A DNA stretch of 64,000 nucleotides from Niameybacter massiliensis (lineage in GTDB: Bacteria; Bacillota; Clostridia; Lachnospirales; Cellulosilyticaceae), in contig NZ_LN875035.1 in the NCBI RefSeq assembly GCF_001282685.1, positions 972,250 to 1,036,249 of the forward strand. The letters are read 5' to 3'. Below are positions 43,773 through 44,576 of this stretch, one piece after another; the stretch's first letter is position 1, and each line of letters starts with the position of its first letter. A program made the translations under genes and the position numbers. Below the pieces are notes generated by a model. The model did no database searches and was not told the origin of the DNA. It saw only the letters and a program-made list of their open reading frames with translations.

Positions 43773-43845
43773 GCTGGAGTAGCTCAGTAGGTAGAGCACA
43801 TCACTCGTAATGATGAGGTCGTGAGTTCGATCCTCATCTCCAGCT
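43773..43845 (+). tRNA. tRNA-Thr (CGT anticodon)
   Basis: The 73-base cloverleaf has acceptor GCTGGAG/CTCCAGC, D-arm GCTC/GAGC and T-arm GTGAG TTCGATC CTCAT. The anticodon loop CTCGTAA holds anticodon CGT on a CATCA/TGATG stem. CCA is not encoded. Confidence 0.93.
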
Positions 43846-43854
43846 TTACAAAAA

Positions 43855-43885
43855 GGTACACATCATCTTTGATGTGTACCTTTTC
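43855..43885 (+). terminator. tRNA-Thr terminator
   Basis: GGTACACATCA (43855-43865) pairs with TGATGTGTACC (43870-43880), followed by TTTTCTTTTT. Confidence 0.85.
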
Positions 43886-43912
43886 TTTTTACCTATATCC
43901 AATCTAAACGTA

Positions 43913-43953
43913 AACAGGGTTGATACACTACGTCATTAGTGCCCAACCCTGTT
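43913..43953. repeat. extended hairpin downstream of tRNA-Thr
   Basis: AACAGGGTTG (43913-43922) pairs with CAACCCTGTT (43944-43953), and inside it CACTA (43926-43930) pairs with TAGTG (43937-43941). No T run follows. It marks the end of the gene-free stretch on the tRNA side. Confidence 0.55.
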
Positions 43954-44031
43954 CTCTCATTTATTCTATTTACTTTCTACCCGTTTTTGATATTTATATC
44001 TATATAAGATATTATAGATATTCTATATTTA

Positions 44032-44319
44032 TTAAAGAGTCTTTCTAATATTTTTCGTTTAAATCTGTATATTTGCTTATTTTTAAAAAAGCTTTTTGAT
44101 ATTTGCTATATTATCTTTTCCGTTAATCTTATTTATATATTTCGTCTACATATTTCTATATTTTATTTTGGGAGAGGATATTTCATATATTTTGATATTT
44201 ACTGAATTAGGATTTTAAACATAAATTGGGAGAGGGACGTTTAAATCCTAATCTTTAGTTCGTACATCTATATTTTTGCATACTTTTAAAATATGTTGGG
44301 GGTAATAAGGACTCTTTAA
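44032..44319 (-). ncRNA. candidate structured non-coding RNA domain downstream of the c-di-GMP riboswitch
   Basis: TTAAAGAGTC (44032-44041) is exactly complementary to GACTCTTTAA (44310-44319), with about three more pairs, closing a domain of 288 bases. Within it a 14-bp stem with one bulge (44206-44220 with 44239-44252) shows, on the minus strand, a loop with CCCTCTCCC. CCTCTCCC recurs at 44170-44177 and CCCCC at 44298-44302. All minus-strand frames are short. It lies in the path of a transcript that would start at the sigma-D-type promoter. Whether the RNA is made is unknown. Confidence 0.4.
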
Positions 44320-44331
44320 AATAGAATTTGA

Positions 44332-44367
44332 GTAAATTTGTACGATCCTCCTTCTTTGCAAATTTAC
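44332..44367 (-). other. hairpin with a perfect Shine-Dalgarno sequence in its loop
   Basis: GTAAATTTG (44332-44340) pairs with CAAATTTAC (44359-44367). On the minus strand the 18-base loop carries AAGGAGG, but no ATG, GTG or TTG with an open frame follows at a usable distance. Confidence 0.5.
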
Positions 44368-44402
44368 ATAACCGATTAGGTTAAAACGGGCTTTGTTCGC
44401 AC

Positions 44403-44440
44403 AAAAAAAACACCTGTTATAACTAACTGTTATCTGCTTC
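44403..44440 (-). terminator. putative riboswitch expression platform (weak hairpin with T8)
   Basis: On the minus strand ATAAC-AGTTA-GTTAT forms a small hairpin, and the ACC ending the aptamer can pair with GGT just before TTTTTTTT (44410-44403). The overlap with the aptamer 3' end would let the ligand choose between the two folds. The stem is weak, so this is tentative. Confidence 0.4.
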
Positions 44441-44526
44441 GGTAACTGGCTACCATCTCTACTAAATGTAGAATTAAGGCCCTGTAGTTTTGCGTCATTA
44501 CCTTTCGGTAATTTTGCCTTTATCGG
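44437..44526 (-). ncRNA. c-di-GMP-I (GEMM) riboswitch aptamer
   Basis: Read on the minus strand, the sequence shows the clostridial GEMM-I landmarks in order: GATAAAGGCAAA, a stem capped by the CGAAAG tetraloop, GACGCAAAACTAC, the conserved GGGCCTTAA, a variable second stem, GGTAGCC and GTTACCGAAG. The tetraloop-receptor arrangement and ligand-site residues of the class are present. No protein gene follows on this strand before the tRNA, which is transcribed in the opposite direction. Confidence 0.88.
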
Positions 44527-44549
44527 TCATGTGGTGCTTAACATCTTAT

Positions 44550-44576
44550 ATATCGACTTATTTTTAAAACACTTTA
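44550..44576 (-). promoter_or_regulatory. sigma-D (FliA/SigD)-type promoter for the riboswitch transcript
   Basis: On the minus strand TAAA (44576-44573), exactly 15 bases, then GTCGATAT (44557-44550). The Bacillus sigma-D consensus is TAAA-N15-GCCGATAT, so only one base differs. It lies about 24 bases before the aptamer. Confidence 0.6.

Follow-up and report, generated by a model that had tools for sequence, protein, structure and literature searches.

A SigD-type promoter and a c-di-GMP-I riboswitch ahead of a candidate non-coding RNA in Niameybacter massiliensis

In a stretch of 64,000 nucleotides of Niameybacter massiliensis DNA (referred to as the window), the minus strand from 44576 to 44403 carries the promoter sequence TAAA-N15-GTCGATAT, a c-di-GMP-I riboswitch aptamer and a run of eight T residues (T8), in this order, and no recognisable coding frame was found behind them. 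It was proposed, with slightly less than even confidence, that the product is a non-coding regulatory RNA, which would be started by SigD, gated by c-di-GMP and most likely active in trans through C-rich segments. This reading was favoured over a lost gene, a c-di-GMP reservoir, an antisense role and a leader of the CBS-ACT gene.

The GEMM-I model (RF01051) was matched in an Rfam search at 44438-44528 of the minus strand over its full length (1-87 of 87) with 74.6 bits, the gathering score being 35. The aptamer is a c-di-GMP-I riboswitch, and its binding of c-di-GMP is predicted from the covariance model. The T8 run was located at 44410-44403, and a tRNA-Thr(CGT) gene at 43773-43845 on the strand opposite to the riboswitch. 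All three features had been described from the letters in an earlier note on this DNA and were borne out, the aptamer by the covariance-model check. The same note had stated that no gene follows for about 800 bases, up to the end of the CBS-ACT gene. The distance was right, as the CBS-ACT gene is the next one on the same strand and lies about 830 nt beyond the aptamer, but it is met at its start (43611) and not at its end. A strong terminator-like hairpin (43851-43884), found by the terminator scan and among the inverted repeats, stands between the candidate RNA and tRNA-Thr; it has a T tract and was read as bidirectional, the scan listing it for the plus strand only.

Three GEMM-I copies were found in the genome, this one included. 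As the remaining two head a secreted-protein-like gene and a chitinase-like gene by sequence reading, the copy studied here is the sole gene-less one among the three. A flgB-like gene was found behind none of them.

A c-di-GMP riboswitch is usually taken to control the gene that follows it. The next gene on the same strand is here the CBS-ACT gene, and the transcript could be its very long leader. This was considered highly improbable, as the distance is about 830 nt and the interval contains two hairpins and a tRNA gene on the opposite strand. Additionally, the CBS-ACT gene is preceded by its own sigma-A-like site (43671-43643), although shuffled sequences contain such sites at least as often.

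The SigD consensus is a TAAA-N14-16-GCCGATAT-like sequence. The promoter of the riboswitch (44550-44576, minus strand) consists of TAAA at 44576-44573, a spacer of 15 nt and GTCGATAT at 44557-44550, and transcription would start near 44543. Sites of the form TAAA-N14-16-GYCGATAT were counted seven times in the 4.57-Mb genome and five times when the pattern was reversed, hence the motif by itself proves little. Of the six other sites, one stands 72 nt upstream of a flgM gene identified by reading and another 125 nt upstream of flagellin; the promoter of the riboswitch has the same form as these two. The riboswitch and flagellin promoters have CTATAAA and the 17 bases AAATAAGTCGATATATA in common. 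The pattern without its last T occurred six times in 1.73 million strand-bases (forty 20-kb stretches, picked to include flagellar clusters, and the window), the riboswitch, flagellin and flgM promoters being among these occurrences. A FliA/SigD gene is encoded in the genome (TIGR02479, 261.5 bits, cut-off 189.6), and the flagellin N-terminal family was matched three times. Thus, both a TAAA-N14-16-GCCGATAT-like site and an encoded SigD were found. The promoter resembles SigD-type promoters, and its dependence on SigD is predicted from the likeness to the flagellin and flgM promoters. The earlier note had likewise named a sigma-D-type promoter, in agreement with the form found and with the presence of the SigD gene.

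The same pairing was searched for in other genomes. A loose pattern of SigD site and GEMM-I was matched in 97 of 391 genomes of the class, the present genome included. Of the 30 pattern loci checked, four continue in a loosely aptamer-like manner, and GEMM-I was confirmed by Rfam in L275 and L277. Two candidates, L254 and L268, were ruled out as GEMM-I because Rfam gave no confirmation. The promoter sites of L275 and L277 are weaker (GTCGATAG and GTCGATAC), and the genes behind their aptamers were read as HD-domain-like and lipoprotein-like, respectively. At L277, a tandem pair of GEMM-I aptamers (1392-1599) precedes the lipoprotein-like gene. Among the 30 pattern loci checked, the strict combination of a SigD site with a gene-less GEMM-I was seen only in the window.

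A candidate expression platform (44403-44414, minus strand) is formed by GGTG (44414-44411) and the T8 that follows it. Two alternative pairings of GGTG were predicted. With TACC of the aptamer tail (44444-44441) it would form a weak terminator hairpin of -4.6 kcal/mol, which was the best local hairpin. As GGTGTTT, it would pair around the aptamer with AAGCACC (44539-44533), located on its 5' side. The two pairings are mutually exclusive, as an expression platform requires. The local hairpin is weak, however, and no terminator before T8 was listed by the simple terminator scan. Six of the seven C. difficile GEMM-I loci with a changed downstream gene were OFF switches, according to extracts of PMC6200980.

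No frame of ten or more codons with a usable Shine-Dalgarno (SD) sequence was found on either strand between 43850 and 44600, and a small protein or toxin was rejected as the product on this ground. The best SD sequence among the 22 frames of this region (-4.0 kcal/mol) belonged to a 10-codon TTG frame. The earlier note had seen no open frame on the strand of the riboswitch. This stood for SD-linked frames, but a 92-codon stop-to-stop frame (44248-44526) crosses the aptamer; its best-scoring start is a TTG at 44361 that has no usable SD sequence. When three whole frames were searched with X at the stops, no Pfam family was matched at E ≤ 1.

The earlier note had left the choice between an RNA product and a lost motility gene. 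Under the second option, the riboswitch would be the leftover leader of a deleted or decayed motility or surface-protein gene, and the stretch would be functionless now. Several observations point that way. An SD-like AAGGAGG at 44353 stands without a start codon, and the closest matches of the aptamer head secreted-protein-like genes. Frame fragments gave sub-threshold Pfam matches to PilZNR (flagellar protein YcgR; a 42-aa fragment, E 0.057) and WKF (E 0.07), and 51 bases match the fliM gene of a family member (L010) with 82% identity. The fragment matches were not repeated by the whole frames, and a PilZNR or WKF remnant was rejected. A fliM remnant was rejected as well, since the likeness at the protein level (22.7 bits) falls inside the range of the shuffled controls (median 21.2, maximum 25.4 bits) and was taken as chance. 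From the sequence, no decayed gene was recognisable in the stretch. Further, the aptamer and promoter are intact, and the stretch folds and has two hairpins behind it, which speaks against decay. The lost gene was regarded as a less probable explanation, and the RNA option was preferred given the missing SD-linked frame, the missing Pfam family, the fold and the recurrence of the layout described below.

The stretch was kept in none of the relatives searched, which again agrees with a lost gene. No homologue of the RNA body was found in 58 other near genomes, where the matches were those of the aptamer and others of 28-57 bases, judged by length and place only. The same result was obtained in 391 other genomes of the order, with aptamer matches and 16 others. 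These 16 are 24-115 bases long with 6-22% G+C; 11 of them lie inside frames of at least 80 aa and none beside a GEMM-I. The best one (L073) had no Rfam match. As no homologue was found, the window RNA offers no covariation. DNA matches of the RNA were found neither in phages nor in plasmids, and the one 18-base pattern searched was not found in viral contigs. The same locus was compared in relatives, as the earlier note had suggested. The CBS-ACT gene was located in seven other genomes of the family and at four named Epulopiscium loci, but in the seven family genomes no riboswitch stood beside it: no GEMM-I was matched in them, and their CBS-ACT loci contain neither an Rfam riboswitch nor a tRNA. 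In genus g9 of the same family, GEMM-I lies 375-594 nt ahead of a flgB-like gene at four loci (L041, L046, L047 and L048), and L050 is about the same. A GEMM-I ahead of flgB is known in C. difficile. The heading of flgB-like operons by GEMM-I in this sister genus was counted in favor of a lost gene.

The candidate non-coding RNA body extends over about 500 nt (43905-44402, minus strand) and has no SD-linked frame. The z values of its fold were between -4.1 and -4.4, and -2.8 without the end hairpin. In particular, the fold of 43905-44408 was better than 100 of 100 shuffles (z -4.06), and for 43905-44400 the z was -4.4 for the minus strand and -3.0 for the plus strand; removal of the end hairpin changed these values to -2.8 and -1.7, respectively. 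Six other intergenic regions of the window gave z values from -0.7 to -6.9, some of them folding equally well or better, and the fold strength of the RNA body is not exceptional for the window. No known RNA family was found in the body (Rfam at the gathering score and at E ≤ 5), as the aptamer and the tRNA alone exceeded the cut-off and all other matches fell below it.

In the minimum-energy fold, a long-range closing helix (43980-44390) is predicted between CCCGTTTT (44390-44383) and AAAACGGG (43987-43980). An inner long-range helix (44032-44319) is predicted between arms at 44307-44319 and 44032-44044, which form an inverted repeat of 13 nt with 92% complementarity. A hairpin of GTAAATTTG and CAAATTTAC (44332-44367), supported by the fold, the sequence and the SD scan, shows the SD-like AAGGAGGAT (44353-44345) in its loop; no ATG, GTG or TTG stands at a fitting distance from it. 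Three C-rich segments follow on the minus strand. The first (CCCCC, 44298-44302) is predicted to be unpaired, the second (TCCCTCTCCC, 44237-44228) lies in the loop of a hairpin at 44206-44252 (inverted repeat I11), and the third (TCCTCTCCC, 44170-44178) repeats CCTCTCCCA of the second one 58 nt away. It was observed that AAGGAGGAT in its predicted loop could pair with ATCCTCT of the third segment of the same RNA, and an internal loop-loop contact is possible in this model. A hairpin of AACAGGGTTG and CAACCCTGTT (43913-43953, inverted repeat I22) with a poor T tract is the likely 3' end of the RNA.

The unpaired probability of the tract Cs in the three C-rich tracts was 0.88, compared to 0.36 for the other Cs. 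Several exposed C-rich segments and no coding frame, by which a trans-acting C-rich sRNA may be recognised, were thus found together, but the enrichment of C-rich tracts over the background is weak (P 0.03 against dinucleotide shuffles, and P 0.14 when the remaining intergenic sequence of the window served as reference). The 9-mer CCTCTCCCA has 17 sites in the genome, equal to the 17 of the reversed control, and two of them lie here within 58 nt. At none of its 15 sites outside the RNA did the complement fall in the 20 nt that precede a frame of at least 40 aa. When 712 genes from 864 kb (about one fifth of the genome) were ranked by duplex formation, flagellin came 275th. The 27 flagellar and chemotaxis genes, picked by sequence reading, did not stand out as targets, with P 0.10, where reversed segments gave 0.065 and five shuffles gave 0.02-0.67. 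Because these target tests were null, the proposed pairing with SD regions is an argument by analogy with the IsrR-like C-rich sRNAs. The IsrR-type sRNAs of Gram-positive bacteria resemble the present RNA in having several exposed C-rich segments that suit G-rich SD sequences in an AT-rich genome, as described in extracts of PMC9410917. They differ in that IsrR is iron-repressed and has tested targets (PMC9410917, in extract), whereas gating by c-di-GMP is predicted for the present locus.

The strongest support for a non-coding RNA came from comparison within the order. The GEMM-I aptamer was present in 166 of 392 genomes in an order-wide search that listed the best places only, and the loci taken from it were among the matches listed. 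A total of 153 loci was collected, namely 27 from the earlier searches of the genome, relatives and family, 28 from the order search and 98 retrieved separately. The L056 locus (29.6 bits) was left out, and 21 of the 153 loci were unanchored and dropped, leaving 132. A locus was called gene-less when no same-strand frame of at least 80 aa lay within 300 nt of the aptamer. Such a frame was found at 94 of the 132 anchored loci, and the remaining 38 are gene-less by the rule, a number that overstates such cases because several have a gene further off, such as the flgB-like gene at 375-594 nt. On reading, genes were found in at least L179, L180, L200 and L218, and L102 proved to be mis-anchored. 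At L179, L180 and L200, GEMM-I lies ahead of proteins beginning like MNEVYRQEKKYFM, which may be VTC-type polyphosphate polymerases. At L131, L145, L153 and L162, GEMM-I is followed by a strong hairpin, and in the first two by a small gene beginning like MAEKKEYRIKVQGQLVPVTEEVYL; by reading, these four loci are possibly part of a conjugative element.

Reading of the gene-poor loci and of the remaining loci of another family of the order (f11) showed C-rich stretches behind the aptamer at 11 GEMM-I loci of f11, each in a different genome of genera g37, g53 or g66. This layout is carried by all three genomes of g53, at least four of six of g66 and at least four of seven of g37. The aptamer is followed by a terminator-like hairpin, identified by reading, and then by a stretch of about 100-470 nt that contains C-rich segments. 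By the rule, eight of these loci are gene-less; in the other three, frames of at least 80 aa start 81 (L125), 296 (L191) and 294 nt (L196) after the aptamer. The L219 locus has such a frame on the opposite strand, 81 nt after the aptamer. The C-rich segments were kept in the alignments, with a mean identity of 76% in g53, 86% in g37 and 93% in g66, and a few compensatory changes were found in the neighbouring stems. The segments are thus conserved within similar RNAs of these genera, and the window RNA has no homologue in the genomes searched.

A hairpin motif, AATATCC-TCCCCCCTATT-GGATATT, is present in two or three copies in the two complete g53 RNAs and once in one g66 genome. Such hairpins were observed behind GEMM-I at L093, L096, L098 and L139, being repeated in L093 and L098. 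No Rfam families beyond the aptamer were found in L093, L098 and L139, and these hairpin RNAs may represent a new RNA class. The remaining three g66 genomes (93% mean identity) all carry CTCACTCTCC, ATATCCCCCC and GTTCCTCCTA unchanged, with one C-G to U-A change in the stem that encloses GTTCCTCCTA. In g37, TTTGTTTCCCC and TTCC[TC]CC were kept in all four loci, three of which are near-identical. In the diverged one (L191), two base pairs of one stem are altered in both partners, and the end stem has lost one of its pairs.

The C-tracts outnumbered antisense C-tracts by 30 to 5 in ten f11 loci and the window, with regions set by eye and the incomplete L096 left out, and the tract Cs were less paired than the other Cs in all 11. 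No excess of C-tracts appeared when the loci were divided by the rule (31 against 33 in the 38 gene-less loci, and 9 against 19 in the rest). In g45, a further genus of f11, GEMM-I was found in seven of eight genomes, and hairpins with a GGGG loop in six of seven loci form a mirror image, a G-rich version of the layout. At the g45 loci (L095, L099, L100, L101, L103, L111 and L115), GEMM-I and a terminator-like hairpin are followed by 130-235 nt that were read as gene-less. An example of the hairpin is AATACTT-TTGGGG-AAGTATT, and the rule misses the GGGG loop in L099. Most of these loci have an AAGGGTA...CGGA stretch before the last terminator, and their loops are complementary to TTTCCCCAA of g37. 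No Rfam family beyond the aptamer was found in 14 loci (nine C-rich and five of g45).

The promoters of the f11 C-rich loci read so far are sigma-A-like and not SigD-like. The likeness of the window to these loci is hence one of layout and need not reflect homology. Confidence in a non-coding RNA was raised since the recurrence in f11 makes a testable class instead of a single oddity, and it was held down by the lack of homologues, transcripts and targets; the recurrence also argues against a lost gene. A broader proposal, rather uncertain, is that across the order an undescribed kind of regulator recurs, in which c-di-GMP-I riboswitches control trans-acting RNAs with C-rich arrays, or G-rich ones in g45, directed at translation starts, and that this arrangement is wired to SigD in the present genome.

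The earlier note had regarded a c-di-GMP-gated regulatory RNA made under the motility sigma factor as new. Full novelty was not supported, as the RCd11/RCd12 and merRNA systems are precedents and sigma-28-dependent sRNAs are found in E. coli. The Cdi1_4/Cdi1_5-RCd11/RCd12 systems of C. difficile are like the present locus in having a GEMM-I, an RNA that ends early at about 140 nt and a non-coding readthrough product of about 400 nt (extracts of PMC7699646 and PMC11477304). The readthrough form of these antitoxin RNAs was reduced at high c-di-GMP, and RCd11/RCd12, in these same extracts, are antisense to a prophage toxin gene and have a second, stronger promoter (PMC7699646, PMC11477304). In contrast, no toxin frame was found at the present locus, and its promoter is SigD-type. 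By extracts of PMC9943018, c-di-GMP riboswitches have the highest tendency to antisense positions. An antisense regulator, either an antitoxin RNA similar to RCd11/RCd12 or convergent transcription on tRNA-Thr(CGT), would agree with the position of C. difficile GEMM-I riboswitches ahead of type I antitoxin RNAs (PMC7699646 and PMC11477304, in extract) and with the direction of the present RNA toward the tRNA gene. The opposite strand, however, carries no small toxin frame with an SD sequence, by which an RCd11-type system would be recognised (best SD -4.0 kcal/mol, in the 10-codon TTG frame), and two hairpins lie between the RNA and the tRNA. This role was considered improbable.

The merRNA of Bdellovibrio (445 nt) is like the present locus in joining a c-di-GMP riboswitch to a non-coding transcript, with no conserved frame downstream (extracts of PMC3627812 and PMC11323537). 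It is made massively in the motile phase and has been proposed as a c-di-GMP reservoir (PMC3627812, in extract). By analogy, the aptamer RNA itself could be the product here, made in quantity by SigD as a sponge, and the flagellin-like promoter would suit this. A sponge, though, needs neither T8 nor a structured body, only a single aptamer copy is present, and the FliA-promoter column is blank for merRNA in the table of PMC3627812. A reservoir was thus judged unlikely, if somewhat less so than an antisense role, and the non-coding regulatory RNA was retained as the favoured reading.

Other known RNAs share single features with the locus. The RCd5 of C. difficile is a 398-nt sRNA candidate that likewise carries a GEMM motif, but it has a sigma-A promoter in the table of PMC3649979 (seen in extract). 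Five of 12 GEMM-I riboswitches of C. difficile lack a downstream coding sequence and are gene-less like the present one; very low riboswitch reads were given for them, and a SigD promoter is not described in the extracts of PMC6200980. The sigma-28-dependent sRNAs of E. coli share the flagellar sigma factor but are UTR-derived, with no riboswitch mentioned in the extracts of PMC10578931. Trans-acting riboswitch RNAs (DebRoy 2014, Mellin 2014) are cited in PMC7266159, as its extracts indicate. Among the papers listed by a literature search that covered a minority of subscription journals, none dealt with a C-rich sRNA gated by c-di-GMP or with a riboswitch sRNA driven by SigD. A c-di-GMP riboswitch ahead of a non-coding RNA is already known, and the locus would be a new variation on this arrangement, in which the promoter is of the SigD type and the RNA is C-rich.

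We proposed the following sequence of events. The SigD RNA polymerase would start near 44543, and the leader would fold as the c-di-GMP aptamer. Depending on c-di-GMP, transcription would either stop at T8, giving an RNA of about 140 nt, or proceed for about 500 nt more to the hairpin near 43913-43953. The long RNA would be non-coding and act in trans, its exposed C-rich segments most likely pairing with G-rich Shine-Dalgarno regions, as in the C-rich sRNAs of Gram-positive bacteria. Production of such an RNA would require both an active motility sigma factor and a suitable level of c-di-GMP.

If this is true, a riboswitch signal could reach many mRNAs at once by means of a trans-acting RNA, and the SigD promoter and the c-di-GMP gate would unite, within a single molecule, the two systems that govern the choice between swimming and settling. 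Since the layout recurs in three or four other genera, the idea is testable by ordinary RNA-seq in cultured anaerobes.
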